Source: a virus. Taken from it: DNA of 64,000 bases. Below the pieces are notes generated by a model, which did no database searches, was not told the origin of the DNA, and was given only the letters and a program-made list of their open reading frames with translations. Both the position numbers and the translations under genes were made by a program. Shown piece after piece: positions 9,652 through 52,718 of this stretch. Position 1 is the first letter of the stretch; each line of letters starts with the position of its first letter. The DNA is taken from positions 18,362 to 82,361 of the IMG/VR virus record IMGVR_UViG_3300013307_000002; one strand, given 5' to 3'.

Positions 9652-9727
9652 GATTCTGTAGTTCAGTTGGTAGAACGGTGGACTGTTAATCCATATGTCG
9701 CAGGTTCAAATCCTGCCAGAATCGCCA
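9652..9727 (+). tRNA. tRNA-Asn (GTT), CCA encoded
   Basis: Acceptor GATTCTG/CAGAATC, D arm, anticodon stem GTGGA/TCCAT with loop CTGTTAA (anticodon GTT), T arm GCAGG-TTCAAAT-CCTGC, discriminator G and encoded CCA. All arms pair well. Confidence 0.93.
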
Positions 9728-9733
9728 AACAAT

Positions 9734-9802
9734 GGGAACCTGAGCACTCTAGGGGACTAGAATATGAGCAATGGTTAATGACACTCGTGATGGTTCCCAC
9801 CA
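9734..9802 (+). ncRNA. tRNA-like element ending in CCA (69 nt)
   Basis: A 7-bp acceptor-like stem GGGAACC/GGTTCCC (9734-9740 with 9792-9798) is followed by A and CCA, as in a tRNA. Inside are two 5-bp hairpins (9748-9761, 9764-9788) but no normal T loop or anticodon loop. It sits between tRNA-Asn and tRNA-Tyr with tRNA-like spacing. It could be a decayed tRNA or a functional tRNA mimic processed with its neighbours. Confidence 0.5.
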
Positions 9803-9808
9803 TTCAAT

Positions 9809-9895
9809 GTTGGATTACTCAAGCGGCAACGAGAGCAGACTGTAAATCTGTGGCCCATATGGGCTTCGAAGGTTCGAGTCCTTCATCCAACACCA
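9809..9895 (+). tRNA. tRNA-Tyr (GTA), CCA encoded
   Basis: Acceptor GTTGGAT/ATCCAAC, anticodon stem GCAGA/TCTGT with loop CTGTAAA (anticodon GTA), long variable arm, T arm GAAGG-TTCGAGT-CCTTC, discriminator A and CCA. Confidence 0.93.
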
Positions 9896-9930
9896 AACAA
9901 TGCACCTATAGTTAATTTTTGAGGTTTACT

Positions 9931-10140
9931 ATGGCAGACTGTAATCGTTGTGGGGATTCTGGGGGAAAGTACTCCCCAAATGAAAACTCTAATAATGGGG
10001 TTTTCTGTTACAACTGTATTGATATTGTGTTAGCTGGGGGCGGAGGAGGTGACTGTAACCCTCGTTACTCTGATAACCCCGGCACAAGGGAAGCTTATAG
10101 AAGACTTATGAGCGCCCCAAACTCAGAGTACAAGTATTAA
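9931..10140 (+). CDS. Zinc-ribbon mini protein, 69 aa, inside tRNA array
   Basis: CNRCGDSGG near the N-terminus and CYNC at about residues 26-29 form a zinc-ribbon pattern like those of DnaJ-type or translation-linked zinc proteins; a glycine run follows. The ATG at 9931 has a GAGGT site; an upstream TTG was rejected. It lies between tRNA-Tyr and tRNA-Arg. Function unknown. Confidence 0.72.
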   Translation: MADCNRCGDSGGKYSPNENSNNGVFCYNCIDIVLAGGGGGDCNPRYSDNPGTREAYRRLMSAPNSEYKY

Positions 10141-10153
10141 TCAAATATATAAT

Positions 10154-10228
10154 GCACCTATAGTTAAATGGATATAACAGGAGCCTTCTAAGCTCTAGTT
10201 CTAGGTTCGATTCCTAGTGGGTGTGCCA
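10154..10228 (+). tRNA. tRNA-Arg (TCT), CCA encoded
   Basis: Acceptor GCACCTA/TGGGTGT with G-U pairs, anticodon stem GGAGC/GCTCT with loop CTTCTAA (anticodon TCT), T arm CTAGG-TTCGATT-CCTAG, CCA. It reads AGA, rare in enterobacteria and common in AT-rich phage genes. Confidence 0.92.
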
Positions 10229-10234
10229 TATTTA

Positions 10235-10323
10235 GCCCGGATGATGAAACTGGTAAACATAGGAGACTTAAAATTTCCCGTCTCGTAAGAGGCTTGCGGG
10301 TTCGACCCCCGCTCCGGGCACCA
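10235..10323 (+). tRNA. tRNA-Leu (TAA), CCA encoded
   Basis: Acceptor GCCCGGA/TCCGGGC, anticodon stem GGAGA/TTTCC with loop CTTAAAA (anticodon TAA), long variable arm, T arm GCGGG-TTCGACC-CCCGC, discriminator A, CCA. Confidence 0.92.
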
Positions 10324-10356
10324 AACAAAGTAACTTTCAGTTCAGTGAGATAAAGT

Positions 10357-10554
10357 ATGAACAGAGAGCAGTCCTTGCACTGGAGGGGTTGGTTAGAAAA
10401 ACAGCCCATGTTTAATGCGAGAGTTTACTGTGTTAGATGTATGGCACCTTATAAAATAGGTGAATGTCAAGAGACACTAGATTCTCCGGGTTGCTATTGG
10501 AAGGAGAGTAAATGCCCTTCATGTGGGTGTAAACTTTATTACAGCCATCTATAG
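10357..10554 (+). CDS. Zinc-ribbon mini protein, 65 aa, inside tRNA array
   Basis: CVRC at about residues 25-28 and CPSCGC near residue 53 give a zinc-ribbon fold, with further cysteines between. N-terminal part is rich in Trp and Arg. It lies between tRNA-Leu and tRNA-Gln; ribosome site weak (GTGAGA). Function unknown. Confidence 0.68.
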   Translation: MNREQSLHWRGWLEKQPMFNARVYCVRCMAPYKIGECQETLDSPGCYWKESKCPSCGCKLYYSHL

Positions 10555-10584
10555 TAATACATCTAGCAAGAATAACCAAACAAT

Positions 10585-10659
10585 AGGGCTATCGTATAAT
10601 GGTTATTACATCGGCCTTTGACTCCGATAATCCACGTTCGATTCGTGGTAGCTCTGCCA
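10585..10659 (+). tRNA. tRNA-Gln (TTG), CCA encoded
   Basis: Acceptor AGGGCTA/TAGCTCT, D arm GTAT/TTAC, anticodon loop CTTTGAC (anticodon TTG), T arm CCACG-TTCGATT-CGTGG, discriminator G, CCA. One mismatch closes the anticodon loop. Confidence 0.88.
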
Positions 10660-19474: not shown

Positions 19475-21109
19475 ATGGATCTGAATCCGATTTTTGCAAT
19501 TGATGGCTATAAAACTTCACATCGTGACCAATACCCATCAGGCACTGAGAAGGTGTACGGCAACTTTACCCCTCGCAGTAATAAGCACTTTGACTCTCCA
19601 TTCTTTGCTAAACGCAAAGGTGGTAGCCCTCTGATTTGGGCTGGCTCTCAGGCGCTGGTTCTTCAGTGGTTGTGCAAAAACTTCAATCAGTATTTCTTCA
19701 ATGCTGATAAAACTCGCACGGTCAATGAGTTCAAATCTTTTATGGACTCATATCTCGGCAAAAATGCTGTTTCTGTAGATGGCATTGCTGCACTTCATGA
19801 CCTCGGATATCTGCCTCTGGAGATTAAATCTCTCCCTGAAGGTAGTTTCGTTGAAATGAAAACGCCAGTGCTTACCATCACAAATACTCTGCCTGAATTC
19901 TTCTGGCTGGTTAACTATCTGGAAACCCTGTTCAGCGCTGAGCTTTGGCCTGTAGCAACTGCTGCCACGATCGGTTTCAACTACCGCTGTATTGGCGAGT
20001 ATTGGGCAGCCAAGACTTGTGACAATTCAGAGCACATTGGTTGGCAGTTCCATGACTTCTCTGCCCGTGGTGACATGGGTATGTGGGCTAACACTCTGGT
20101 TGGTATGGGGCATCTGTTCTCCTTCACCGGCACTGATTCAGTGGCTGCTCTGCGTCGTCTGCAAATGCAGTATGAGATTGATTGTCTGGATGGTGGTTCT
20201 ATCCCAGCGACAGAGCATAGCGTGATGTGTATGGGGACTAAGGACGGTGAACTTGAAACGTTCCGCCGTCTTGTTCAAGATATCTATCCATCAGGCCCAA
20301 TGGCAGCAGTGGGTGATACTTGGGATTGGTGGAAAGTCCTTCTTGAGTATGCTTCCCAACTGAAAGAGATTATTTTGTCCCGCGAAGGCAAAGTAGTTTT
20401 CCGTCCAGACTCAGGTGACCCGGTAGATATTATCTGCGGTGAGCAGTTCATCGATCTGGATAGTTGTACTCATCTTGGCGAAGCACTTACTACTATGCTG
20501 CGTGCTAGAGCTGAAGGTCTTGTTTGCCGTTTTAATGGCGAATATTTCCGTCTAGTTGACGGTGGCTTTGTTCAAGTTCCTGAACACATCATCAAAGGCT
20601 CTATTCAGTTGCTGTGGGAAATCTTTGGTGGCACGATCAATAAGAAGGGCTTCAAAGTTCTGAACCCTAAAGTTGGTCTGATTTATGGTGATAGCATCAC
20701 TATGGAACGTGCTGAAGAGATTTTCGAACGCTTAGCCAATAAGAGCTTTGCGTCGTCCAACGTAGTGCTGGGTATTGGTTCTTATACCTATCAGTATGTT
20801 ACTCGTGACACGTTTGGTTTTGCCATGAAAGCTACTTATGGCGTTGTTAATGGCGAACCTCGTGAAATCTTTAAAGACCCTGCTACCGATGATGGGACTA
20901 AGAAGTCTCTGAAAGGTCTGCTATGCCACACGGTTAATGATCGTGGTGAATGGTCAGTTAAAGATCAAGTAACCCCTGAAGAAGAGGCTAAGAGCGAGCT
21001 GACCACTATCTTTAAAGATGGTAAGGTCACTGGTCACACTTCCCTTCAGGAAATTCGTAACCGCGTATCTTATGCGGTGTCTAAATTCGTGGCAGAACGT
21101 TCTGTCTAA
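19475..21109 (+). CDS. nadV: Nicotinamide phosphoribosyltransferase-like (NadV/NAMPT or Namat)
   Basis: Transfers a phosphoribosyl (or ADP-ribosyl) group to nicotinamide for NAD synthesis. Full length (544 aa). Motifs: DGYKTSHRDQYPSGTE at residues 10-25, FHDFSARGD near 192, PATEHSVM with the phosphorylatable His at 248, DTWDWW near 282, FRPDSGDPVDI with the substrate-binding Arg near 310, and GIGSYTYQYVTRDTFGF. It is 27 bases behind the Prs-like gene, with which it forms a two-step pathway. Host-like codons. Could be classic NMN-making NAMPT or Namat of NARP1. Confidence 0.93.
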   Translation: MDLNPIFAIDGYKTSHRDQYPSGTEKVYGNFTPRSNKHFDSPFFAKRKGGSPLIWAGSQALVLQWLCKNFNQYFFNADKTRTVNEFKSFMDSYLGKNAVSVDGIAALHDLGYLPLEIKSLPEGSFVEMKTPVLTITNTLPEFFWLVNYLETLFSAELWPVATAATIGFNYRCIGEYWAAKTCDNSEHIGWQFHDFSARGDMGMWANTLVGMGHLFSFTGTDSVAALRRLQMQYEIDCLDGGSIPATEHSVMCMGTKDGELETFRRLVQDIYPSGPMAAVGDTWDWWKVLLEYASQLKEIILSREGKVVFRPDSGDPVDIICGEQFIDLDSCTHLGEALTTMLRARAEGLVCRFNGEYFRLVDGGFVQVPEHIIKGSIQLLWEIFGGTINKKGFKVLNPKVGLIYGDSITMERAEEIFERLANKSFASSNVVLGIGSYTYQYVTRDTFGFAMKATYGVVNGEPREIFKDPATDDGTKKSLKGLLCHTVNDRGEWSVKDQVTPEEEAKSELTTIFKDGKVTGHTSLQEIRNRVSYAVSKFVAERSV

Positions 21110-21133: not shown

Positions 21134-22063
21134 ATGGGTAATCCATTCTGGTTGTATGTTGCACTAGCTGTAACTTTGGTAGTGTCTATCTTTGTTGATT
21201 TTATTGGTCACAAGGAAGGCAAAGAACAAACTTTGGCCTCAAGCGTTGTATGGTCATTGTTCTGGATTGCAGCAGCCGTAACACTCGGTGGTTATATCTA
21301 CCTTGTTTATGGGTCAACTGCTGCCAGTGAATACTTCTCAGGCTATGCAATGGAGAAAGCACTCTCTATTGATAACTTGATGGTGTTTGTTGCTATCTTC
21401 TCGTTCTTCGGTATCAAAGACAGTTATCGAAAGCATAAGATCCTGCTATGGGGTATTGCTGGAGCACTTGTGTTCCGTGCAATATTTGTAGCTTTAGGTA
21501 CTACGTTGTTCCATCTACATTGGAGCGTCGAAGTTATCTTTGGCTTACTGGTTATCTTTTCAGCTTACGCTTTGGTCAAAGGTGGAGATGATGAAGAAGA
21601 GGAAAACTATAATGAAAAACCGTACATCAGGCTGGTTCGCAAGTTCTACCCTGTGGACTCAGACTCTAACAGTAGCCGCTTTTTTACTGTTAATAACGGT
21701 GTTCGTTATGTTACGCCTATGTTTCTTTGTCTGCTCACTGTTGAGCTTAGCGACATTATGTTTTCGTTCGACTCCGTGCCAGCAGTTATCGGAATCACGA
21801 AAGAGCCACCTCTGGTATATGCGGCGATGATTATGGCCATTCTTGGCCTGAGAGCGCTGTTCTTCGTACTAGGCTGGATGATGAAGCATCTGACACGTCT
21901 CGACGCTTTCGTAGCACTTATTCTAGTGTTTGTTGGTGTTAAACTTGTTGGACACCCTTTTGGGTTGGAAATCGGGGCAACGCAAAGTCTTTATGTGGTG
22001 CTCGGTTTGCTGTTGGCTGGCGTACTTGTTTCTTTGGTTCTCCCTAAGAAAGAGAACGATTAA
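21134..22063 (+). CDS. terC: TerC-family membrane protein
   Basis: Integral inner-membrane protein of 309 aa with about eight to nine hydrophobic segments. TerC/Alx signatures: EKALSIDNLMVF at about residues 76-87 and VELSDIMFSFDSVPAV near 204-219, both with acidic residues inside the membrane that bind metal. An acidic cytoplasmic loop (DDEEEE) lies between. Family members are linked to manganese export and tellurite/stress resistance. It follows the NAMPT-like gene by 24 bases. Carriage by a phage together with TerB is unusual. Confidence 0.92.
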   Translation: MGNPFWLYVALAVTLVVSIFVDFIGHKEGKEQTLASSVVWSLFWIAAAVTLGGYIYLVYGSTAASEYFSGYAMEKALSIDNLMVFVAIFSFFGIKDSYRKHKILLWGIAGALVFRAIFVALGTTLFHLHWSVEVIFGLLVIFSAYALVKGGDDEEEENYNEKPYIRLVRKFYPVDSDSNSSRFFTVNNGVRYVTPMFLCLLTVELSDIMFSFDSVPAVIGITKEPPLVYAAMIMAILGLRALFFVLGWMMKHLTRLDAFVALILVFVGVKLVGHPFGLEIGATQSLYVVLGLLLAGVLVSLVLPKKEND

Positions 22064-22325: not shown

Positions 22326-22682
22326 ATGTTTAGAGGTAAAAAATGGACTCCTGAAGCTATTGAAGCTTTTGGTAAGTCCTATGAAACAGATGGCCCGAAA
22401 GCAACCGCTGCTAAATACGGTTTAACAGTAAAACATACGTATTCCTTAGCAGGTCGGTATGGTTTTAAATCTAATCCCCATAAGAACAATTGGGATGAAG
22501 GTGATGATTATTTAGTGGTTGGCCTTCATTTAGAAGGTGTGAGCCACAAAGAGATAGCACGTAAGATGGATAAGACAGAGTGGCAAATTAGCGCTCTTAT
22601 TGCCTCTTTACGGGCTAAAGGTAAGTTTGACGACTTAATGAATCGTCATGTCCGTTCTAAGTTTAAATGGGTGAAACAATGA
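22326..22682 (+). CDS. Helix-turn-helix protein, 118 aa
   Basis: Two HTH-like units: KWTPEAIEAFGKSY...TAAKYGLTVKHTYSLAGRYG (residues 6-47) and a second with GVSHKEIARKMDKTEWQISALIASLR (about 70-95). Basic tail. Probably a DNA-binding regulator. AGGAGG ribosome site; first gene of the large peptide-ligation block, so it may control it (inference). Confidence 0.72.
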   Translation: MFRGKKWTPEAIEAFGKSYETDGPKATAAKYGLTVKHTYSLAGRYGFKSNPHKNNWDEGDDYLVVGLHLEGVSHKEIARKMDKTEWQISALIASLRAKGKFDDLMNRHVRSKFKWVKQ

Positions 22683-24383: not shown

Positions 24384-25553
24384 ATGTTCCCGGTGACTCT
24401 TGAAAGCGTCGGGGGTTTGTTGCAAACGTATCAGACCCCTTGTTATGGTTTCCTTCATGAAGGTGAGTGGTGGAGTGAGAATTATGCATTCGTTGATGGC
24501 TGGCAAAACATGGTCAGTTATCCGTATCATTCCGCTTCACCACAACAGCCTTTTGGGTTCTACTGCCTACAAAACTATGGGTCTACGGTTTTTTCAGAAG
24601 AAGATAGAATCGAGTTAGATGATCTTCGTTATATCTGGAATAGTGGCGCTGTTCTTCCGACTGTAGGTTTGGGTAAAGATAATAATCCCAAAAACCCTAT
24701 TGCTAAGCAGCATTGGGGTAGCTCAAAGATCTCCTATGGTGAAGAACCAGCAACACCAGTGGATAATGTAGCTCTGTGGAGCCAAGCATCTGGAATACCT
24801 TACACTCGTAAGGAGTTCTTAGAAGCTCTTGAATCTTGGATTGATGCTGGAAGAAGTTCCGCAATGGTTTGGGATCATCGTGGCTTCATGGGTGTTCGAG
24901 CTGATGTTCCTGCTGACAGGGCTTTGTTTTATCTCATGGTAGATAGAGAGCTTTGGGATAATGATGTGAAGTCTAAGACTAACTTCATTATGGATCAGAT
25001 TCATAAGAAGGGACGTAATCCTATGATTGCCTTCCTCATGAGTCGATTAGTCTCGATTGAAACCAATGCTGTTGGTCAGACTAAGATGTACTACACTGGC
25101 AACACAGGGGATAACTGTATTTTACCTGATTCTTTACTGGTTAAAGGGTTAGGTTCTAAGTACAAAGAACCTCTTGCTGTCGAGTGGGAGCAATCTTGCT
25201 ATTCTGACAACTGTCCGCATGAAAGGGATGAAGATATCGATGAAAGAAAAGGTGGCTGGTACTTCGAATCAGAAGAGTTCTGCGCTACTGTTTCCAACTC
25301 AATGTTTAACCCACTGTTCATGCTAGAGCAAAGCAGCACCTCTGCCGTCTCCCTGATTGGGGAAGGTGAAGAAGCTACTCCGATTAATAAGCTATTCGGG
25401 ATTGAAGTGCTAGGTGAGTCTGTATTCCGATCTAGTAACTATCGATATTGGGAAATTGGTGAAATTATCAATGCCCTATCGGAAAGCGACGAAACAAAAA
25501 TCCCTTCCTCAGAGTGGGAAGATGTTATGTATAAACTCCTTATGGGTGAATAA
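24384..25553 (+). CDS. Unknown protein of the amidoligase cluster, 389 aa
   Basis: Unrecognised soluble protein rich in Trp, Tyr and acidic residues, with several cysteines (CYSDNCPHERDEDID near 270-290). No membrane segments and no nucleotide-binding loop seen. Three bases separate it from the next unknown gene, which in turn overlaps the amidoligase, so all three are co-translated and probably serve the same pathway as scaffold, substrate carrier or additional enzyme (inference). Confidence 0.82.
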   Translation: MFPVTLESVGGLLQTYQTPCYGFLHEGEWWSENYAFVDGWQNMVSYPYHSASPQQPFGFYCLQNYGSTVFSEEDRIELDDLRYIWNSGAVLPTVGLGKDNNPKNPIAKQHWGSSKISYGEEPATPVDNVALWSQASGIPYTRKEFLEALESWIDAGRSSAMVWDHRGFMGVRADVPADRALFYLMVDRELWDNDVKSKTNFIMDQIHKKGRNPMIAFLMSRLVSIETNAVGQTKMYYTGNTGDNCILPDSLLVKGLGSKYKEPLAVEWEQSCYSDNCPHERDEDIDERKGGWYFESEEFCATVSNSMFNPLFMLEQSSTSAVSLIGEGEEATPINKLFGIEVLGESVFRSSNYRYWEIGEIINALSESDETKIPSSEWEDVMYKLLMGE

Positions 25554-25556
25554 AAA

Positions 25557-26408
25557 ATGTCAACATCCTTTCTGTCCGCTCCCTCTGTCCCTCTACGAAA
25601 TGGGAGAGTAGTGGAGCAATCCCGTAGAGCGTGCTTCGGTGAGTATAATCGACTTTCTGATGAAGCTAGAAGCACACTGGAAGTCATGGAGTGGCACCCA
25701 GAAACATCTAACGGGTATAAACAGGCAAAGGAATGTCGTGAATTTATTAGCAGCTTTGGTTTCTGGAAAGATGTGTATCGAGTGACAACACTGAGTGGAA
25801 TGGCTGCTGATATCCGAGATAAACCTGCTGATTTAATTATCACTGGTTTCATGGCGGCAAGAAACTTTAGCCAGCGTCAGTATGAGTTTTTGGCAGATGG
25901 CGGTTCTTTCCCTGAAGGAACTACCTATCTTGATTCGTGCCGATACAGCTTTCTTGCCTCAGTGATTGGCGGGTCTGTTGGGGCTTTTGGTTTCAACTAC
26001 ACCGACCCGCGTAATGGCGAGAGTGGTCTTTGTCGTTTGTTAGAAGAAGATGATGCTTATGGCTTATATCTTCTGGCGTTTGGTAGTAAAGAAGAGTGTG
26101 AAGGGGCTTTCTTTCAACATCCACTGTTTACTCCGGGCACCCCTAATGACAACGGTTATCTGAGAGATGATCACCGTACCACTGCACGGAGCATGATGCG
26201 CCAGATGGGCTACACACCTCAGCAAGTAGATGTGTGGCGATCAATGTCTGATTGGCTCCGGCTGTTCCTGACCTCATCTAAAGCTCAGGCTTCTGGTAAG
26301 TTAGGTCGCTTAACTGTAGGACAGTTTATCTCTCGTCATTCACAACGTGGTAATGATATTACTACCTTCGTATCTATGTTTGAAGAACTTAAGGATATGT
26401 ACTCATGA
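25557..26408 (+). CDS. Unknown protein of the amidoligase cluster, 283 aa
   Basis: Unrecognised soluble, acidic protein. Glycine-rich stretch SVIGGSVGAFGFNYTDP near 140-156; helical C-terminus. It overlaps the amidoligase start by ATGA, evidence for tight coupling. Function not deducible. Confidence 0.82.
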   Translation: MSTSFLSAPSVPLRNGRVVEQSRRACFGEYNRLSDEARSTLEVMEWHPETSNGYKQAKECREFISSFGFWKDVYRVTTLSGMAADIRDKPADLIITGFMAARNFSQRQYEFLADGGSFPEGTTYLDSCRYSFLASVIGGSVGAFGFNYTDPRNGESGLCRLLEEDDAYGLYLLAFGSKEECEGAFFQHPLFTPGTPNDNGYLRDDHRTTARSMMRQMGYTPQQVDVWRSMSDWLRLFLTSSKAQASGKLGRLTVGQFISRHSQRGNDITTFVSMFEELKDMYS

Positions 26409-27199
26409 GTTTCACTATCGGAACCGATCCAGAGCTGTTCACCCGTCGTCAAGGCAAAATCTCCTCAGTAGCAGGTCTGCTGGGCTGTAGTAAGTCTGAG
26501 AAGTTGCATCTTAGTCAGAACGTTCGTCTGCAAGAAGATAATGTTCTTGCTGAATTCGATATTAACCCTTGTAAGGGTTTTGAGCAGTTCGATGCAACTG
26601 TGCAGGAAGGTCTGGATCTTACTCAGGCGCTTCTGGCTAAGCATGGCCTTGAGATTGCTAACGGTGTTAGTAGTCACATTTTCTCTGAAGAAGAGATGAA
26701 AAGCTTCCATAAGAGTGCTTTTGAGTTTGGATGTACTCCAGACTATAATGCTTTTACTGGTCGTCAGAACGCTTCTCCTTCAGCAGCAGATCCCGGCCTT
26801 CGTACTGCCGGTGGTCACATCCACATCGGTTATGCTGAAACAATTCCAGTCACCAAACAAAACCAGTTAACTGCTGGCGTTCTGTGTGACTATTTCCACT
26901 CACTTCCAGCGATGTTTATGGATGGTGATGAACGTCGTAAAGAGCTTTACGGCAAAGCAGGTGCAATTCGTTTCAAAGATTACGGTATCGAATATCGTTC
27001 TCTTAGTAATTTCTGGGTAACAGATAAGAATCTGCGTCGTGTCATTTACGACCAGACAGAGAAAGTTGTTCAGTTCTTGGGAACAGATAAGCTGCTTCAG
27101 CTCAACTCCCTGCTGCCTGTACAGCGTTTACAGACCATCATTAACACTAATGATAAGCGTACAGCAGAATCTTTCTTATCTCGTTTGGGTATTATTTAA
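26405..27199 (+). CDS. phiEco32-type COOH-NH2 ligase (amidoligase type 2)
   Basis: Member of the glutamine-synthetase/GCS-like superfamily of ATP-dependent carboxylate-amine ligases. Visible hallmarks: IGTDPELF (5-12), FGCTPDYNAFTG (about 108-119), GGHIHIG (about 137-143), metal- and substrate-binding positions of the fold, then AGAIRFKDYGIEYRSLSNFW (near 191-210). Predicted to join an amine to a peptide or amino-acid carboxyl group; substrate unknown. Sits with a second amidoligase, glutamine amidotransferase, ATP-grasp and GGCT-like genes. ATGA-coupled to the gene before. Confidence 0.85.
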   Translation: MSFTIGTDPELFTRRQGKISSVAGLLGCSKSEKLHLSQNVRLQEDNVLAEFDINPCKGFEQFDATVQEGLDLTQALLAKHGLEIANGVSSHIFSEEEMKSFHKSAFEFGCTPDYNAFTGRQNASPSAADPGLRTAGGHIHIGYAETIPVTKQNQLTAGVLCDYFHSLPAMFMDGDERRKELYGKAGAIRFKDYGIEYRSLSNFWVTDKNLRRVIYDQTEKVVQFLGTDKLLQLNSLLPVQRLQTIINTNDKRTAESFLSRLGII

Positions 27200-27208
27200 G
27201 GGGGCTAT

Positions 27209-27814
27209 ATGAGCTTGCTTCGTGACTATAATCACTATTACCAGCAATCTTGGGTAGGGGTGAAAGAGGGTAATCTTCTTCTCCCTATCTATGTTGAGCA
27301 GGTTATTGACAGTAGTGATTATGACAGAGATGATTACTCGGAAGAACACAGAGCGCGTCTTGAAATACACGGTTATCGCTACACTAAGAATAGTCGTGGT
27401 CGCGTGTCTGGTTCTCGTTTTTCTATCTCTGTTCTTGATGAAAGTCTTGTTCTGGAATCTCCAGACGTAGGTTACATCTCAAACGGTCATGATGTTCGTT
27501 GGGCGGTTATCCGTCCAGTTCGTCAGCGCATGAAAGGCATGGTAAGCAATAAGGTTGTTGGTACAAGTTTGGGTCGTAGCAATGAAAATGCTTCGATTAT
27601 CTACAACCTGTTTAATCCTGAATTTGAAGGTATGATTAATCGCTATATGTTTGTAGCTCCGTCTGACAATCACATCTATTATAAAGGTGCGAAAGTTGGG
27701 GTAATTACAGAAACTGGTGTTAATATTATCTCTCGGTTCTCTTACCTGCTTCCTATGCTTACCGCGTGTGAGCAGTATCGTGATTTACCTGTAACTCCTG
27801 TAGAGGCTCTATGA
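27209..27814 (+). CDS. Unknown protein between two amidoligases, 201 aa
   Basis: Unrecognised, basic beta-rich protein (GYRYTKNSRGRVSGSRFSIS; ISNGHDVRWAVIRPVRQRM). Ends four bases inside the next amidoligase gene (ATGA). Its strict position suggests a subunit or substrate-binding partner of the ligases (inference). Confidence 0.8.
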   Translation: MSLLRDYNHYYQQSWVGVKEGNLLLPIYVEQVIDSSDYDRDDYSEEHRARLEIHGYRYTKNSRGRVSGSRFSISVLDESLVLESPDVGYISNGHDVRWAVIRPVRQRMKGMVSNKVVGTSLGRSNENASIIYNLFNPEFEGMINRYMFVAPSDNHIYYKGAKVGVITETGVNIISRFSYLLPMLTACEQYRDLPVTPVEAL

Positions 27815-28947
27815 CCACTGTACAGTCTGTATTTAATCATCGTCCCCCACGGCTTAGCAGCCCGCATCCAAAAATCGCATTCAATGCCGGCGTTGGTATT
27901 GAGTTAGAGGTTGAGGGTGTAAGTCACATTGATGTACCCCTCTGGAACTGCACTGAAGATGGCTCACTTCGTAATGGTTGTGAGCTGGTTTGTGCTAATC
28001 CTTACTCTGGCGTTCAGTTGTATGAAGCGATTGAAAACCTCAGCGAATCAGTAACTCGTAGCGGTGCTCAAGGCACTTGGCGCTGTTCCACTCACGTTCA
28101 CTTAGATGTTCGTGATTGTGATGATAACACGCTGAAGAAAGTCATTCTTGCATGGGCTTTTTATGAAAAGCTCCTGTTTAAATGCTCTGGTTTCCATCGT
28201 TATCGTAGTAACTTCTGTCCGGCGTTTGCTGTTGTTCAGGCTCAGCTTTTAAACGCTTCTATAGCGTTCAATCATTCTGGTGAAAACTTCTTTCATCGTC
28301 TGGTTAGTTGCTGGGATAAATACACTTCACTGAATCTGCTCCCTTTGATGCAGTTCGGTAGTGTTGAATTCAGAATTTCTGAGCCTAAGTGGAAGCGTAC
28401 TAACCTGTTGAATCTGGTTAACCGTTTCTTAACTCTGAAAAAACTGGCTGTAGAAAACAGTCATCTGACACATCAAGCTTTTATTGATATGTTACGTGAT
28501 TTAGGTTTCTCTGCAATGATGGAATATCTGCCGCTTGATTATATGCTTGACCAGAGAGATCTGGATGATGGGTATATTCTGGCGAATGATGTTCTTAATG
28601 TTCGTGCAAGAGAGACTACTGTTGTTTCTCGTGTTACTCTTAATGTTCTGAATGCTGAAGCTATTGATAACTACGTAGTGGAAGATGTTCGTTCTGTATT
28701 GAATAACTGGACACACTATGCAGGGCACTGTGTATCTAAGAATGAGTTGTACGCTAACATTTTTAGAGAGATCTTTTCGACAGGTTCACCTCGTTCTGTA
28801 GATAGTTGTAATCTCGGAATGATTAGCCGGTTGATCGAAGAGTGGAAAGTTATTGCGCAAAGTCGTGCCGACACTGACAGTGAGATCAATGAGATTATCC
28901 TGTCGAACTGGACTAATGAATTAAGTCGTTTTATTGAAAATCTTTAA
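27811..28947 (+). CDS. Amidoligase (Amidoligase_2 family)
   Basis: Second predicted ATP-dependent carboxylate-amine ligase. Signs of the family: GVGIELEVEGV (about 28-38), W...EDGSLR-NGCELV (about 45-60), CSTHVHLDV (about 91-99), then NFCPAFAV, and LLPLMQFGSVEFRISE (near 176-191) with the conserved Glu-Arg. Residues after about 230 are helical and unassigned. It probably acts after or together with the type-2 ligase on the same product. Overlaps the previous gene by four bases. Confidence 0.83.
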   Translation: MTTVQSVFNHRPPRLSSPHPKIAFNAGVGIELEVEGVSHIDVPLWNCTEDGSLRNGCELVCANPYSGVQLYEAIENLSESVTRSGAQGTWRCSTHVHLDVRDCDDNTLKKVILAWAFYEKLLFKCSGFHRYRSNFCPAFAVVQAQLLNASIAFNHSGENFFHRLVSCWDKYTSLNLLPLMQFGSVEFRISEPKWKRTNLLNLVNRFLTLKKLAVENSHLTHQAFIDMLRDLGFSAMMEYLPLDYMLDQRDLDDGYILANDVLNVRARETTVVSRVTLNVLNAEAIDNYVVEDVRSVLNNWTHYAGHCVSKNELYANIFREIFSTGSPRSVDSCNLGMISRLIEEWKVIAQSRADTDSEINEIILSNWTNELSRFIENL

Positions 28948-28964
28948 AAATAGAGGATTATAAG

Positions 28965-30992
28965 ATGTGTGGAATCGTATTGGCAGGTGGTAACTTATTC
29001 GCTACAGAAGCAGATATTTTTAGTAATCTTCTGTATGCTGATGTATTTCGTGGTATTCATGCAACTGGTGTTTATGCAAAGCGTGGTACTGAAGGTATCG
29101 TAATGGCTAAAGATGCCGTGCCTTCTTATACTTTCCTTAACACGAAAGCTTATAAAGAAGTGCTGACTGGTAAAACAACAGCTAACGTATTTCCTTCTTT
29201 CATCGTTGGGCATAACCGCCATGCAACACGGGGTAACTCAGATGATCCTAAAGGTGCCCACCCGTTCCAGCACGGTAAAATAACGCTGGTTCATAACGGT
29301 ACTCTGTATGACACTTCTCACTTACCAGAGCACGAGAAGTTTGTTGTGGACAGTGAAAACATCTGTTACTCGATTGATAAGATTGGAGCGGAAGCGACCA
29401 TTCAGAAACTGGATGGTGCCTTTACTCTTATTTGGCACGATGCCAATGATGAAACAGTGCATATCATTCGTAACAGTGAGCGTCCATTCCATCTTGCCAA
29501 AGCAGGCGCTGATTGGTTTGGTGCTTCTGAAGAAGAGATGCTGATGTGGATTCTGAATCGCAGCAAATCTGTAGGCAAACGTAAAATTGAACACTTCGAA
29601 TGCGAAGTAGGTGTTGAATACATCTTCGACGTTAGTGGTGTCGGTAAGAAGTTTGAACTTAAATCTCAGGTCAAACACACTCTCCCAACTTTTACGTACG
29701 CCAGTCGTTATGGAGCGCTGGGAAGCGGTTGGCAAAACAGCTATGGAAACAAGAGAAGCTACTATCCAGCGGTAAGTCAGGAAGAAAGAAAGGCAACCGC
29801 AAACGCAGGCTATAATGCTATTGCTATTCGTAATGGCCTTAAAGTTCGTGTTGATCATCGTGTTGACTTTATTCCAACATCTTTCTTCCCCTACAGCAAC
29901 AACAGTAATGTAGGTAAGATGATGGGCTACTTCATGGATAATGACACTGAGTACCTTGAAGTTGATGTGTTCGGTGTTAAGAAAGAATTGTATGACGAGT
30001 CTCAGAGAGATTTGAACTTCGTCTTTACTGGCACTGTTCAGTCTATCATTGAGCTGAAACCTGCTGCCTCTGCCCATAGCAACCGCCCTATTCCTCGTCT
30101 GATTGTGACTGGTATTTCTTTGCTTAGTCCAGAAGCAAAAAAAACAAGGGATACGATTGACGAAGAGTTAACTGAACTCGCTGATGATGTACCTTTTGAG
30201 CATGAAGGGGGTGATACGGATTCTCCGGACTCCTTTCGTACCATTGGAGGTACAGAGATTACTCGCGACTTTTGGATGAAGCATGACCACGGTGTCTGCA
30301 TGGGTTGTAACAAAACAATCCCGTGGAGTAAGGCGAAGGATGCAGCATATGCATACCAAGCTTTCTGGCATCCAGAATGTTTAGCTCGTACAGAGAAAGA
30401 AGAGGCTGATGTTCGTGAACAGTCTAATAATACTTTCTACTGTGGTTCATGTGGTAGTGAAAAGGATATGAAATTCCTCGACACCACTGCATCAGCGAAG
30501 AACGAAACTGACACTTGCTCAGCTTGCGGCTCTGAAGAACGTCGTCGTGGCGCTGTTCAGGGGAATGATTACGTCACCGCTTCTTTCAAAGTTTCGGATA
30601 GTTCAGGTAATGTTAAAATGACGTCTCGTGTGTTTAATCGTCGTGAGTTTGAACACATGATTCGTGAACGTGGTAGTGATAGTGTGGAGTTCAAAAACTT
30701 AGCAGATGCGAATATTACACTTCGCGGAAGCAATGTGTTTGCTTATTTCTATAAGAAAGATGGTAGTCACAAAGCTGTAGCTAAGGAGGAAACCAGCACT
30801 CAAGCTGGAAGCTTTCCCACAGCAAAGTTCATCAAAAAGTCTGATGGAACAAGCTACAAAGTCTCAAAAGCCCTCTGGCTTCAAATCGGTTCTTGCGTCC
30901 ATTGTCGGAGCACTGTTCCGTGGATAGATGTTGAGAAGTGTTCATTTACTGAAAATGGTAAAGTGGTCTGCAAAGATTGTAAAGGTGAATAA
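28965..30992 (+). CDS. Class II glutamine amidotransferase with C-terminal zinc fingers
   Basis: The N-terminus MCGIVLAGG has Cys2, the class II (Ntn) glutaminase nucleophile; GHNRHATRG (about 86-94) and HNGTLYD (about 109-115) complete the active site. It would release ammonia from glutamine. Unlike GlmS, PurF or AsnB it has no recognised acceptor domain; instead residues after about 430 carry several zinc-finger pairs (CMGC, CGSCGS, CSACGS, CVHC, CKDC). Probably feeds ammonia or a glutamyl group to the neighbouring ligases, with the zinc fingers binding a partner (inference). Confidence 0.88.
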   Translation: MCGIVLAGGNLFATEADIFSNLLYADVFRGIHATGVYAKRGTEGIVMAKDAVPSYTFLNTKAYKEVLTGKTTANVFPSFIVGHNRHATRGNSDDPKGAHPFQHGKITLVHNGTLYDTSHLPEHEKFVVDSENICYSIDKIGAEATIQKLDGAFTLIWHDANDETVHIIRNSERPFHLAKAGADWFGASEEEMLMWILNRSKSVGKRKIEHFECEVGVEYIFDVSGVGKKFELKSQVKHTLPTFTYASRYGALGSGWQNSYGNKRSYYPAVSQEERKATANAGYNAIAIRNGLKVRVDHRVDFIPTSFFPYSNNSNVGKMMGYFMDNDTEYLEVDVFGVKKELYDESQRDLNFVFTGTVQSIIELKPAASAHSNRPIPRLIVTGISLLSPEAKKTRDTIDEELTELADDVPFEHEGGDTDSPDSFRTIGGTEITRDFWMKHDHGVCMGCNKTIPWSKAKDAAYAYQAFWHPECLARTEKEEADVREQSNNTFYCGSCGSEKDMKFLDTTASAKNETDTCSACGSEERRRGAVQGNDYVTASFKVSDSSGNVKMTSRVFNRREFEHMIRERGSDSVEFKNLADANITLRGSNVFAYFYKKDGSHKAVAKEETSTQAGSFPTAKFIKKSDGTSYKVSKALWLQIGSCVHCRSTVPWIDVEKCSFTENGKVVCKDCKGE

Positions 30993-30993
30993 A

Positions 30994-31218
30994 ATGGAAG
31001 TGAAGAAAATTTTACTGGATGATGTAGCGGTTGTACGTAAAATCCCTATGTCAGAGAAAGGATGCGACAATCTCCGAGCTATTCAGAAGTATCTCGTTGA
31101 TGGACTATCAGCAAAAATGGGTAAGCCTGTTGAGCTGCCATACCCTACCGTGATTAACATGGTTCTTGCTGAGTTTGTACAGAGGCACAATATCCATGTC
31201 CCAGGTAAGTCAAGTTGA
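30994..31218 (+). CDS. Hypothetical protein, 74 aa
   Basis: Start at the ATG after AAAGGT. Small helical protein (MSEKGCDNLRAIQKYLVDGL; PTVINMVLAEFVQRHNI). Resembles a ribbon-helix-helix or dimerisation unit but not assignable. Overlaps the next gene by 23 bases. Confidence 0.65.
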   Translation: MEVKKILLDDVAVVRKIPMSEKGCDNLRAIQKYLVDGLSAKMGKPVELPYPTVINMVLAEFVQRHNIHVPGKSS

Positions 31219-31414
31219 GTTTTCACTAGCTTTCATCATGGGTCGACTCTCCGCTCTTGTGGCGGAGCAGTCTCGTGCCTATGTTTATGCTTTCGATATC
31301 GAAGCACCCTCTGATGAAGTTTATTTTCAATCATTAGAAGATTACATATTCCTAGCAGAACAAATCCAATACTGCTTAATTGAACTCGATCAAATCAAAA
31401 GGTTATTAAAATGA
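31196..31414 (+). CDS. Hypothetical acidic protein, 72 aa
   Basis: Helical and acidic; start at the ATG with GAGG ten bases before. Stop overlaps the ATP-grasp start by ATGA. A carrier-like or adaptor role for the ATP-grasp enzyme is possible from coupling only. Confidence 0.65.
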   Translation: MSQVSQVEFSLAFIMGRLSALVAEQSRAYVYAFDIEAPSDEVYFQSLEDYIFLAEQIQYCLIELDQIKRLLK

Positions 31415-32664
31415 CTCGTATTGCTATCCTTCCTTATGGCCCATCTGACTCTTGTACTGCACTGCGTGATGCTCTTATTGCTCAGTTTGAAGGTGACAAC
31501 ACTACTTCTGTTCGTAAACTTCGTAGTGATAATAGCAGCACTTTTCGTGGTCGTGCTGGTGATATCATCATCAACTATGGCAATCGTTCAGCCCCTGAAG
31601 AACGTTTCGGTAATGCCTTTGTCTTAAACAGTCAGGGTGCTCTGAGAAATGCAGCTAACAAGCTGAATGCCTTGAATACGATGCGTAATAACAACGTGTC
31701 AACTGTCCCATTCACTGTAAACTCAGAAGAAGCTCGTATTTGGGCGGCATCTGGTTCAGTTGTATATGCTCGTACAACTTTGAATGGTCACTCTGGTGAA
31801 GGTATTGTTGTTGTCAATGCTAATAACATTGATGCTATGCCGGAAGCACCTCTGTACACCAAGGGTATTACTGGTCGTCGTCGTGAATGGCGTGTTCATG
31901 TTTTCGATGGTGTAATCACTCATGTTCAGGTTAAACGTCGTCGTAACGGTTATGCTGAAGATCCTAACTATCGTGATGATGTACGTAACCATCAAACTGG
32001 TTGGATTTATGCAACTGAAAACATCAACCCATCTCAGGCAGTTCTGCGTAATGCAGTGAATGCTGTTGCTTGTATGGGTCTTGACTTCGGTGCTGTTGAT
32101 ATCATCAGTCTTGGTGATGAAGCTTGGGTTCTGGAGGTTAATACTGCTCCGGGTCTTCAGGCAGAAACTACTATGACAGCTTTTGTCAATGCTCTAACTG
32201 CGAAAATTCATAACATTCGCTTCCGGGGTGCGCCTCAAATGGTTATCACTCCAGCGTTCCAACTGGAACCAGAGGTACAGGAAGAAGATGCTTTTACTCC
32301 AGAAGAAATTGCTGCTGAAGAAGATGATCTTGCTGGTAGTTATGACCCAGAAGCCGCAGCCTTCTTTAATGCGGGAGCTTTTGGCACTGATCGTCCGGCA
32401 GCCATGTCAGCTCCTCAAGTACAAATGACTGCTGAAGGTACTCTCCCTGAAGCAGAAACTCGCAATGTTCCAGATGGCTATTATCTTGCAAATATTCAGC
32501 GAATGGACGATCGTTCAACTGCAATGAATGTAATTGTGTGGGTTTCTAGTGGTCTTGTATATCGACACGGTTGGAACTCTCCGATTCGTCTGAGTCAAGT
32601 TCGTGGCCTTCGTGCCATCACCTCTGTAGTGTCTGGTAACGAAACTGTAGCTGTTTCTGTATAA
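31411..32664 (+). CDS. ATP-grasp ligase
   Basis: Predicted carboxylate-amine/thiol ligase using ATP through an acyl-phosphate. ATP-grasp features: YARTTLNGHSGEGIVVV (about 112-128), a second lysine-bearing strand with REWRVHVFDG, and the metal site AVDIISLGDEAWVLEVNTAPGL (near 229-250, shown in parts). RimK/YheCD-like layout. The C-terminal 130 residues contain an acidic disordered linker and a small beta domain. Central enzyme of the peptide-ligation block; substrate unknown. Confidence 0.88.
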   Translation: MTRIAILPYGPSDSCTALRDALIAQFEGDNTTSVRKLRSDNSSTFRGRAGDIIINYGNRSAPEERFGNAFVLNSQGALRNAANKLNALNTMRNNNVSTVPFTVNSEEARIWAASGSVVYARTTLNGHSGEGIVVVNANNIDAMPEAPLYTKGITGRRREWRVHVFDGVITHVQVKRRRNGYAEDPNYRDDVRNHQTGWIYATENINPSQAVLRNAVNAVACMGLDFGAVDIISLGDEAWVLEVNTAPGLQAETTMTAFVNALTAKIHNIRFRGAPQMVITPAFQLEPEVQEEDAFTPEEIAAEEDDLAGSYDPEAAAFFNAGAFGTDRPAAMSAPQVQMTAEGTLPEAETRNVPDGYYLANIQRMDDRSTAMNVIVWVSSGLVYRHGWNSPIRLSQVRGLRAITSVVSGNETVAVSV

Positions 32665-32694
32665 CTTTTTAAACAACTTATTAAGGGTATTAGT

Positions 32695-32931
32695 ATGTCA
32701 ATGGAAGACATTTTAGATCGCGGTTTTATGGAAGAAAAAGAGCCTATGATTGTCCACTCTCGCAAAGTTCTTAAAGGGCTTTGTGAAGAGTATGGAATCA
32801 CCAATCAGCGTCGAGTTAGCAGCGAGTATTCAGCTTTCGTTACCTTCATGAATCGTGGTGATGAAGAAAGTGCTCGTCGTATGCTGACTCAGTGGCAAGA
32901 AGATGAAGCTGTAACTAAAATCCCTCACTAA
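32695..32931 (+). CDS. Hypothetical acidic protein, 78 aa
   Basis: Helical acidic protein; ribosome site AAGGGT. Unrecognised. Follows the ATP-grasp gene by 30 bases. Confidence 0.7.
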   Translation: MSMEDILDRGFMEEKEPMIVHSRKVLKGLCEEYGITNQRRVSSEYSAFVTFMNRGDEESARRMLTQWQEDEAVTKIPH

Positions 32932-32944
32932 TAACTGAAACAAC

Positions 32945-32964
32945 AGCCCGGCGGTGTTCGGGCT
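32945..32964 (+). terminator. Hairpin without U tract
   Basis: AGCCCG pairs with CGGGCT around an 8-nt loop; no T run, so an attenuator or inactive terminator. Confidence 0.4.
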
Positions 32965-32976
32965 TATGGAGTTCTT

Positions 32977-33165
32977 ATGGCTATTGTAACTGCTAAGAAA
33001 GTATTTACTGCACTGAATCCTGAAAATGGTCTTATGTTAGACATTGTTGCTAACAGCTTTATTCGTAATGGAGATCATTTTGAGTTTGCCGACAGTACAA
33101 GTATTATTGCTTTTATCCCTGATAATTTTATTGTGGCACTGAAGGATAACATCGTAAATGAATAA
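32977..33165 (+). CDS. Hypothetical protein, 62 aa
   Basis: GGAG ribosome site. Small beta-rich protein; unrecognised. Confidence 0.68.
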   Translation: MAIVTAKKVFTALNPENGLMLDIVANSFIRNGDHFEFADSTSIIAFIPDNFIVALKDNIVNE

Positions 33166-33198
33166 TACAGCCAAGTAAGGCAAAAGTAATTAATTACT

Positions 33199-33224
33199 AC
33201 AAGGCATTCTTTTGAGTGCCTTGT
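33199..33224 (+). other. 8-bp hairpin in gene gap
   Basis: ACAAGGCA (33199-33206) pairs with TGCCTTGT (33217-33224). Shape fits a terminator but lacks a T tract. Confidence 0.45.
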
Positions 33225-33247
33225 GTTGATTATGTTGGAGAATACTT

Positions 33248-33400
33248 ATGTTGAAATACAGTATTCATGGAAGGATGGATAAGGATGATGATTGGCATTT
33301 TATTGGAGTCTTCTCTGAAGAGGAGTTGGAAGATAAAATTGATTATTATCTAATCTTCTGGAGATACCTAAAGCGTCAAGCTTTTATAGGATATTTATGA
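33248..33400 (+). CDS. Hypothetical protein, 50 aa
   Basis: ATG after TTGGAG. Acidic first half, then aromatic/basic (YYLIFWRYLKRQ). Coupled to the next gene by ATGA. Unrecognised. Confidence 0.6.
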   Translation: MLKYSIHGRMDKDDDWHFIGVFSEEELEDKIDYYLIFWRYLKRQAFIGYL

Positions 33401-33576
33401 AAATCGGAAGTCCTGAACACAAGAAGTTTCAAGAAGAAAATGGTCGTAAGCTCCGAGAAAGGCTTCAGAAAGAAGTTGAAGCCGGGCCAAAAAGTGATGG
33501 CATGTTTGACCGCTTATCACATAACTTTTCTTCAAATCTGTTAAATTCACTCAACACTCGTAAGGTAGTTAAATAA
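33397..33576 (+). CDS. Hypothetical basic protein, 59 aa
   Basis: Starts in the previous stop with AGGA ahead; ends in the GGCT-like start (TAATG). Helical and basic. Unrecognised. Confidence 0.62.
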   Translation: MKIGSPEHKKFQEENGRKLRERLQKEVEAGPKSDGMFDRLSHNFSSNLLNSLNTRKVVK

Positions 33577-33977
33577 TGTCAGATGTTCAACTGGTAGCTG
33601 TATATGGATCACTTCGTTCAGGGATGCAGAACTTTCACGTTAACAATCGAGCTGGAGCTGCTCTGGTTGGTAAGGGTGCTACTGTAGATAACCACGATCT
33701 GTTTCGTTATGCAGGTTGCTACTTCCCATCAGTTTCTCTGGCACATTCAGAGTCAGGTAAACCTGTTGTAGTGGAAGTATTCGCCACAGATGAAGCAGGA
33801 CTGACTGGCCCGTATGATGCTCTTGAGGGTTATCCAAACTTCTATAATCGTACTCAGATTCCAGTTAAACTGGATGATGGTCGCGATGTTATGGCTTGGA
33901 TTTATCACATTGATGAAGAGCAATCTGATCGTGTTGAATCTGGTGATTGGGTTGAATATTGCAAAGGGGATAAATAA
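33576..33977 (+). CDS. Gamma-glutamylcyclotransferase-like (GGCT/AIG2) protein
   Basis: GGCT-fold protein of 133 aa. YGSLRSGM (residues 10-17) is the substrate-cradling loop; the catalytic Glu is expected at 84 in DALEGYPNFYNR. Family members cleave gamma-glutamyl amides with formation of 5-oxoproline (for example BtrG) or act on gamma-glutamyl amines. With amidoligase and ATP-grasp genes nearby it may remove a gamma-glutamyl protecting group or trim the product. Stop-start coupled on both sides. Confidence 0.85.
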   Translation: MSDVQLVAVYGSLRSGMQNFHVNNRAGAALVGKGATVDNHDLFRYAGCYFPSVSLAHSESGKPVVVEVFATDEAGLTGPYDALEGYPNFYNRTQIPVKLDDGRDVMAWIYHIDEEQSDRVESGDWVEYCKGDK

Positions 33978-39063: not shown

Positions 39064-39077
39064 ATAATGTATATAAT
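39064..39077 (+). promoter_or_regulatory. Candidate phage-sigma promoter (ATAATGTATA)
   Basis: ATAATGTATATAAT just after a terminator and 35 bases before the thioredoxin gene. No good -35 is seen, which fits a non-sigma70 promoter; TATAAT at its end could also serve host polymerase. Confidence 0.45.
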
Positions 39078-44217: not shown

Positions 44218-44727
44218 ATGAAGTACGTACAAGGGAATCTGTTGACGGCTCTACAATCTGGCAAGCTGGATGTGATCGCCCATCAGACGAACTGCTTCTG
44301 CAAGGGTCGTCGTGGAATAGCACCTCAAATCTTTGATGCCTTTCCTGAAGCTAAGCTTGCTGACGATAAAACAGAAGTAGGCGATGCAAGCAAGATGGGC
44401 AACTTTACTGTAGCGACCACTATGTGTGGTGGTCGTGTTTATAACCTCTATGGTCAATATCATTTTGATAACAGGAAGTCTGACTATGGAACTCATTATC
44501 CCTCTTTGCAGAACTCTTTATATGAAATGGCTTGTGATTTGCGAGAAGTTTATAGAAGCTCTACCGATGATACTCCTATTAGGGTTGGCTTTCCTCTCAT
44601 TGGCTGCGGCCTTGCCGGGGGTGATTGGAATCGTGTTTCAGAGTTTATAAAGAATGCCTTTGATGGCCCAGAATATGATGTTTATATTTATACTTTAAAT
44701 AAAATGGATGGTGTTCAATATGTCTAA
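44218..44727 (+). CDS. Macro-domain protein
   Basis: ADP-ribose-binding macro domain of 169 aa, of the Poa1/ADP-ribose-phosphatase-like type. Motifs: VQGNLLTAL (4-12), VIAHQTNCFCKGRRGIA (about 19-35), NLYGQYHFDNRKSDYG, and PLIGCGLAGGDWNRV (near 124-138). Known members bind or hydrolyse ADP-ribose derivatives or de-ADP-ribosylate proteins. Together with the NAD-synthesis-like pair it suggests handling of ADP-ribose during infection. GGAG ribosome site. Confidence 0.88.
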   Translation: MKYVQGNLLTALQSGKLDVIAHQTNCFCKGRRGIAPQIFDAFPEAKLADDKTEVGDASKMGNFTVATTMCGGRVYNLYGQYHFDNRKSDYGTHYPSLQNSLYEMACDLREVYRSSTDDTPIRVGFPLIGCGLAGGDWNRVSEFIKNAFDGPEYDVYIYTLNKMDGVQYV

Positions 44728-52070: not shown

Positions 52071-52718
52071 ATGGCTGGTAAAACTACAGCAACCCGTTAT
52101 CGTATTCATGGTATCCCTATTGTGTATTGTGACAACTACACAGAGTTCTATAAAAAGAACTGGGGAGTAGTACACAAGTTCTTCATGTATGATTTAAAAG
52201 ATTATCATGAAGCTGAGGATATTACTCAGGATATCTTTATCAACGTCTGGAGATTTATCTTTGAACGCGATGAAAAGATTTATCGACTGCTTCCATCCCA
52301 CCAAGAGAATATGACTTATCAGGTTAAGAATATTATCTGGTCTATTCGTTCTAACCGAAACACAATGCTTGAACGTCGTATTGATGTATTGACTGAGAGT
52401 ATGATGTTTGATAATCCTAATAGTGATGAAACCCCTCTAGAAACGGTTGTAAACCGCTGTCATAGTGTAGGCGACCCATTCACTGAGTCTCGTGTTTATT
52501 TCTTCTTAGAAGACCTTCAGGAGTCTTATAGCGATAAGAAAGTAAGTGATATGTTCACACTAATTTTCTTAGGTTTCTCTCACGATGAAATTCAACAGAA
52601 ACTGAACATCTCACACGGAACATTCTACCGTCGTTATAAAGATCACAAAGCTAAATACGAAACTATTGCTTTGAATCACTTTTCATCAGAGGAGATGGAG
52701 CTTCATGAAGGAAATTAA
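52071..52718 (+). CDS. ECF-like sigma factor
   Basis: Phage RNA polymerase sigma factor. Region 2 is clear: YHEAEDITQDIFINVWRFI (about residues 45-63). Region 4-like HTH FSHDEIQQKLNISHGTFYRR near 165-184. 215 aa, typical ECF size. phiEco32-type phages are known to encode such a sigma for middle and late genes. Candidate target promoters with AATG(T/G)ATA lie at 2759, 9617, 39064 and 50069. GGAGG ribosome site. Coupled to the following genes. Confidence 0.87.
   Translation: MAGKTTATRYRIHGIPIVYCDNYTEFYKKNWGVVHKFFMYDLKDYHEAEDITQDIFINVWRFIFERDEKIYRLLPSHQENMTYQVKNIIWSIRSNRNTMLERRIDVLTESMMFDNPNSDETPLETVVNRCHSVGDPFTESRVYFFLEDLQESYSDKKVSDMFTLIFLGFSHDEIQQKLNISHGTFYRRYKDHKAKYETIALNHFSSEEMELHEGN

Follow-up and report, generated by a model that had tools for sequence, protein, structure and literature searches.

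A phiEco32-type amide-ligase cassette in an environmental podophage and the gamma-glutamyl or amide product predicted for it

What might a podophage make with a glutaminase, three predicted ATP-dependent ligases and an enzyme of the kind that removes gamma-glutamyl groups, all encoded within 9.6 kb? The question is raised by positions 24384-33977 of a 64,000-nucleotide (nt) stretch of DNA (the window), which is part of the 82,361-bp IMG/VR record IMGVR_UViG_3300013307_000002 and belongs to a phiEco32-type podophage. The combination is not new, having already been described with a function that is predicted only. Passages of the literature treat the gene set as a 'peptidoglycan modification cassette', after Iyer 2009 and Hardies 2013 (PMC5498523, PMC11945000), the proposed purposes being superinfection exclusion (PMC5498523, PMC10580990) or the preparation of lysis (PMC11945000). 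Searches of the literature gave no experimental function for the cassette, the papers found offering predictions only, and it has been without a proven product since the 2009 prediction. To the known cassette the present analysis adds the Q family (genes A and B) and gene D as members, Peptidase_C26 in relatives, and a gamma-glutamyl constraint. The reading tentatively favoured is that of an amide-ligase cassette in which ammonia from glutamine and three ATP-dependent ligases would give a gamma-glutamyl or amide product that is trimmed last, with the envelope as its target.

Layout and enzyme families of the cassette

The genes follow the order A to I, then small open reading frames (ORFs), J and the primase/helicase gene K (34400) (Table 1). 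The ORFs named in a preliminary description of the window were all found again, and its five enzyme families were borne out by hmmscan against Pfam and PHROG. The zinc-finger pairs that it had seen in F correspond to CxxC pairs in the C-terminal part. It had also described the genes as largely joined. Overlaps of 4 nt each occur between B and C, D and E, and H and I, but J lies approximately 0.9 kb from I, with four small ORFs (the gp79 homologue among them) and a terminator-like hairpin at 33198-33225 in between; close joining therefore holds for A to I and not for J. No sigma promoter of the phiEco32 type (tAATGTAtA) was found ahead of the cassette, the single match in the window (at 39065) being at chance level, and Sigma70-like promoters in the cassette region did not exceed chance level either.

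Table 1. Genes of the cassette region, with window coordinates (aa, amino acids)
Gene	Coordinates	Strand	Assignment and features
A	24384..25553	+	389 aa, Q family; phrog_13063; invariant Cys20 and Arg188; fold without PDB match
B	25557..26408	+	283 aa, second Q-family member; phrog_13102; invariant Cys26 and Arg102
C	26405..27199	+	phiEco32-type COOH-NH2 ligase; PF14395 above cut-off, phrog_3815
D	27209..27814	+	201 aa, core component; phrog_4877; predicted beta-rich fold without PDB relative
E	27811..28947	+	Amidoligase_2; PF12224 above cut-off
F	28965..30992	+	Class II glutamine amidotransferase; GATase_6/7 above cut-off, phrog_4736
G	30928..31218	+	Small DUF7195 protein; PF23825 E-value 8e-20; true start probably downstream of listed ATG
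H	31166..31414	+	Small phrog_13464 protein; listed TTG start uncertain
I	31411..32664	+	RimK/D-Ala-D-Ala-ligase-like ATP-grasp ligase with phage-specific C-terminal extension; phrog_2599
gp79 homologue	32695..32931	+	53% identity to phiEco32 gp79, E-value 1e-29
J	33576..33977	+	GGCT/GGACT, gamma-glutamylamine cyclotransferase type; PF06094; catalytic Glu84 in DxLEGY

With Pfam gathering cut-offs applied and PHROG profiles used alongside, C matches COOH-NH2_lig at 29.9 bits (cut-off 25) and phrog_3815 with an E-value of 5e-104, E matches Amidoligase_2 at 38.4 (cut-off 22), F matches GATase_6 at 56.6 (cut-off 27) and phrog_4736 with an E-value of 9e-136, and J matches GGACT at 73.2 (cut-off 22.8). 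Going by its family, C would possess a glutamine-synthetase fold. For I, the Pfam RimK model (PF08443) scored 18.5, just below its cut-off of 21; placement in the ATP-grasp superfamily is supported by phrog_2599 (E-value 3e-117) and by RimK chains (5zct/4iwx) as the nearest solved structures. The nearest solved protein to F is asparagine synthetase and that to J is AIG2-like domain-containing protein 1 (3jub), which puts J nearest to GGACT, an enzyme acting on gamma-glutamylamines.

The preliminary description had named loss of catalytic residues on alignment as a result that would speak against it; these residues are intact in C, E, F, I and J. F has the residues of a class II glutaminase, these being Cys2 right after Met1, R85, N111-G112 and D129, and no fused synthase domain was recognised in it. 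I keeps K84, R161, D230 and E242-x-N244, with ExN kept across the family. The motifs kept among relatives are GxDPE, GGHxH and YGxEYR in C, ExE, DGSLR, HxH and EFR in E, MCG, GHxRxxT and HNG in F, and DxLEG in J.

As RimK is a ribosomal protein S6 glutamate ligase, its closeness to I brings up tagging, in which a host or virion protein receives amino acids or a peptide on its carboxylates, and the adjoining transcription-switch gene gp79 would suit such a role. However, one ligase suffices for the RimK type, compared with three and a glutaminase here. No dedicated tag protein was recognised in the cassette either: D, tried as a carrier or tag protein, was ruled out as its C-terminus is not conserved, and there is no universal small ORF. 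Protein tagging is considered improbable.

Conservation across phages

By tblastn against 50,697 phage records, the genes C, E, F and I were found in 313, 288, 329 and 310 records, respectively, with near-equal counts for the four genes by genus (C/E/F/I 121/112/121/120 in Pseudomonas, 93/92/92/93 in Escherichia). For D and A, this search reached close relatives only (117 and 97 records), profiles reaching further. At nucleotide level, the search for near relatives of the window gave a 57-bp match only. Single-sequence scans of viral contigs yielded almost nothing and it was alignment queries that worked; the resulting profile survey comprises 199 sequences (198 loci and the window) in 148 virus groups, 130 of which have at least three of C, E, F and I. 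Median gaps in these 130 groups are 3 nt for C-D, -10 for D-E, 3 for E-F and -2.5 for F-I, the core genes being mostly adjacent or overlapping. The gene order shared with phiEco32 and LUZ24 and the near-equal counts of C, E, F and I are not chance. The genes are co-conserved across many phage lineages, the opposite of what the preliminary description had said would count against it.

A reduced cassette, E-F-I, was also observed before the primase/helicase, with an amidoligase of approximately 520 aa bearing an N-terminal extension of approximately 270 aa, and with no recognisable C, D, J or Peptidase_C26 (loci L093, L094, L104-L106, L110, L123, L125, L127, L141, L144, L148, L150, L151 and others).

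The gene spacings of the core bear on another possible product, a ribosomal peptide of the graspetide kind that the ATP-grasp enzyme would cyclise. Bacterial ATP-grasp ligases do carry out such reactions, and I has the small ORFs G and H next to it. Nevertheless, G is found in only 15 of the 130 groups, confined to phiEco32/LUZ24-type cassettes, and H in only 6, the closest relatives. No family-wide precursor gene was found beside the ATP-grasp gene, and the near-zero gaps of the core leave no room for a universal one. Gene spacing thus largely refutes a graspetide, to which hardly any credence is given.

The primase/helicase gene K is located near the cassette in 115 of the 130 groups. Together with the restriction-modification resistance of the Gordonclarkvirinae, which is without known cause (PMC11990801), this would agree with hypermodification of the phage DNA by the cassette as the source of that resistance. 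The coupling to the primase is loose, however, with a median gap of 976 nt, and a scan of ten further window genes turned up no hypermodification family, the families recognised being ThyX, dCTP deaminase, NAMPT, TerC, sigma and exonuclease. Furthermore, the DNA of the cassette-bearing phage tf is cut by RsaI, HpaI, EcoRV, SmaI and HaeIII (PMC3517423) and that of U17, a Bruynoghevirus that also carries the cassette, by 11 of 16 enzymes (PMC11945000), digests which concern tf and U17 and not the window phage. Given such restriction data, DNA modification by the cassette is unlikely, and on present evidence the cassette is a poor candidate for the resistance of the Gordonclarkvirinae; as its explanation, we rate hypermodification by the cassette very low. 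A sparse modification, or another gene, is possible in the Kuraviruses.

Removal of gamma-glutamyl groups

Peptidase_C26, carried by many relatives, is the family to which gamma-glutamyl hydrolases and PuuD belong. Among the 101 groups with C, E, F and I, 33 have GGCT (J) only, 43 have Peptidase_C26 only, 21 have both and 4 have neither. GGCT is thereby present in 54, Peptidase_C26 in 64 and at least one of them in 97 of these groups, while two of the four with neither (L177 and L114) sit at contig ends. In the C26 proteins, the motifs GiCRGxQ, HHQ and HPE (Cys-His-Glu) are kept across 79 sequences. The complementarity of the two enzymes gave a Fisher value of 2.6e-8, which is inflated by shared ancestry; on the tree of C, J changes at least 16 times, Peptidase_C26 8 times and the presence of either 4 times. 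Two loci (L195 and L196) have a full C-D-E-F-I set and Peptidase_C26 on contigs filed as bacterial metagenome-assembled genomes, which are probably phage contigs.

The presence of GGCT or C26, along with the position of J nearest to GGACT, suggests that the pathway forms a gamma-glutamyl bond and cleaves it again afterwards. An amide/gamma-glutamyl pathway with removal of the gamma-glutamyl group had been proposed in the preliminary description, and the family assignments and the occurrence of one or other enzyme beside nearly every complete cassette lend this part of it support.

Such removal would also suit a free small molecule acting in the infected cell, for example an amidated gamma-glutamyl peptide or a gamma-glutamylamine, from which a gamma-glutamyl protecting group comes off last in a butirosin- or Puu-like manner. 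A ligase of the glutamine-synthetase type, an ATP-grasp enzyme and GGCT or C26 are the logic of known gamma-glutamyl-protected pathways, and both the GGACT type of J and the C26 of relatives agree with it. On the other hand, none of the cassette proteins was recognised as a carrier protein, a transporter or a tailoring enzyme, and the infection time of a phage is short. A free small molecule is regarded as somewhat unlikely.

The Q family and gene D

The preliminary description had left three large partners unassigned; these amount to two families only, A and B forming one (Q) and D the other. A and B were linked by hhalign profile comparison (probability 85.5%, E-value 5.6e-6), and through an iterated profile they group with upstream proteins in 66 loci, RIO-1_7 included. 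They are one family, often the opening gene of the cassette elsewhere. One Cys (C20 in A, C26 in B) and one Arg (R188 in A, R102 in B) are invariant in a 57-member alignment, while in a separate 55-member alignment the start Met, that Cys and that Arg are the sole invariant columns. The AlphaFold2 model of A (predicted local distance difference test, pLDDT, 77.4) has no match in the PDB with an E-value of 0.001 or below, the best being 0.5, and in BFVD it matches only uncharacterised phage proteins, including those of Cronobacter, Proteus and Aeromonas phages. Q was considered as an N-terminal nucleophile (Ntn) hydrolase and this was rejected, there being no significant PDB match and gamma-glutamyltranspeptidase appearing only at E-values above 1.

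In LUZ24-type phages, two proteins with a C-aromatic-G motif occupy the position of A and B. As hhalign gave no link between these and A/B, their membership in Q is by motif and position only. The most Q-family genes seen in one locus are three, in the arrangement Q-J-Q-Q-C-D-E-F (L170). In the Q-hit-less cassettes tested, the upstream ORF was Peptidase_C26 in 10 of 10. Q and Peptidase_C26 were for this reason suspected of being mutually exclusive, which was ruled out with 28 groups having both (Fisher p 0.37).

D is a core part of the cassette, being present in 83 of the 130 virus groups, with a D-like ORF in the C-E gap of about six further cassettes. Its AlphaFold2 model is very confident (pLDDT 94.7) and has no match in the PDB apart from a weak partial likeness to chromodomain/Tudor-like barrels (E-value above 0.1). 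In D-less lineages E has N-terminal extensions of approximately 140-280 aa, which might represent a D fused to E, although hhalign showed no similarity between them and D.

A possible pathway and its target

In the pathway tentatively favoured, F would hydrolyse glutamine and supply ammonia to a ligase, as its intact class II active site indicates. C and E, of the glutamine-synthetase type, and the RimK-like I would each use ATP to activate a carboxylate for coupling with an amine or with ammonia, potentially building an acyl chain that bears or passes through a gamma-glutamyl group. J, or Peptidase_C26 in relatives, may then strip the gamma-glutamyl group as 5-oxoproline or glutamate. With its invariant Cys and Arg, Q could be a cysteine-dependent enzyme handling acyl or amide groups, and D, considering its core status, might serve as a scaffold or in substrate recognition. 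The favoured recipient is, speculatively, a precursor of the cell envelope, for example the stem peptide of peptidoglycan, in which a gamma-glutamyl bond and free carboxylates occur; a block to superinfection or the preparation of lysis, as published, may be the purpose. In phiEco32, gp79 is a middle gene whose product inhibits sigma70 transcription (PMC8948821). As the window has a gp79 homologue between I and J, takeover is the probable time of cassette expression. Solved structures of gp79 are available (9m7y, chain 9m7y_G 'gp79', and 9m7z).

In favour of this pathway are the intact glutaminase, the three ligase families, a gamma-glutamyl remover in nearly all complete cassettes, the frequent presence of two accessory families, and operon-like packing, the gene coupling being tight and mostly overlapping in the 130 virus groups. 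The hosts named among the matches listed are diderm bacteria with peptidoglycan. Several points weigh against it. This host restriction is an impression from those listed matches, and a comparable set in a phage of Bacillus subtilis is cited in PMC11945000. No cassette protein was recognised as membrane or lipid-II-binding, and the published papers offer predictions only. In addition, an independent-pairs test on the tree of C found the GGCT/C26 complementarity not significant (little power, no signal), for which reason it is to be taken as a description and not as proof.

A wider claim sees the cassette as an assembly line, widespread among viruses, whose output would be either a new product, amidated or gamma-glutamyl-protected, or an envelope modification, with Q as a Cys enzyme of new fold, D as a new beta-rich fold, and GGCT and C26 as interchangeable deprotectors. 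This we regard as rather doubtful; if true, two unrecognised protein families, Q and D, would be at its heart.

Other features of the window

Upstream of the cassette is a gene for a NAMPT/NAPRTase-type nicotinamide phosphoribosyltransferase (19475-21109), possibly an NAD-salvage or anti-defence gene, with a TerC-family membrane protein (21134-22063) just downstream of it and a D5-like transcriptional regulator at 22326-22682. Five tRNA genes (Asn, Tyr, Arg, Leu, Gln) were identified at 9652-10659, compared with one annotated (Arg) in the phiEco32 stretch (L003). Further downstream are a weak macro-domain match (PF01661) at 44218-44727, below cut-off, and a weak match to sigma-70 region 2/4 at 52071-52718, in line with a phage sigma factor of the kind found in phiEco32-like phages.

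Comparison with known systems

About 300 of the 50,697 phage records contain the cassette, as do well over 100 distinct environmental virus groups, and its carriers include Pseudomonas and E. coli phages considered for therapy. Its closest counterpart in gene order is that of phiEco32 (Kuravirus, Gordonclarkvirinae), where phi32_88 to phi32_75 (cassette phi32_88-77) are arranged identically to the window. Like the window, phiEco32 has two Q genes, D, DUF7195, gp79 and GGCT with primase/helicase alongside; identity between the window's proteins and those of the phiEco32 group is about 28-68%, and the small ORFs from gp79 to GGCT differ. The BASEL collection now holds Kuraviruses infecting E. 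coli K-12 (PMC11990801), which makes the question of the cassette experimentally testable. The fuller parts list (Q, D and C26) and the gamma-glutamyl constraint can guide joint gene deletions and the mass shifts to be sought.

LUZ24, tf and UFV-P2 (Bruynoghevirus and relatives) have the order C-D-E-F-G-I-J (LUZ24 gp14-gp24, UFV-P2 ORF19-31) and, like the window, two upstream C-aromatic-G proteins in the place of A and B; their F and I are shorter. The 'peptidoglycan modification cassette' of RIO-1 and PSA-HP1 (Hardies 2013) shares GGCT, the glutamine amidotransferase, the COOH-NH2 ligase, D, the amidoligase and the ATP-grasp enzyme with the window. However, its order is J-F-C-D-E-I and it has a single Q gene, RIO-1_7, just upstream, which is not named among the cassette genes in the relevant passages of PMC5498523.

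The Puu pathway (PuuA/PuuD) and butirosin biosynthesis (BtrJ/BtrG) are not homologous to the cassette as systems and have no counterpart to its class II glutaminase, Q or D. They do work in a similar manner, in that a ligase adds a gamma-glutamyl group which a C26 hydrolase or a GGCT enzyme later removes.

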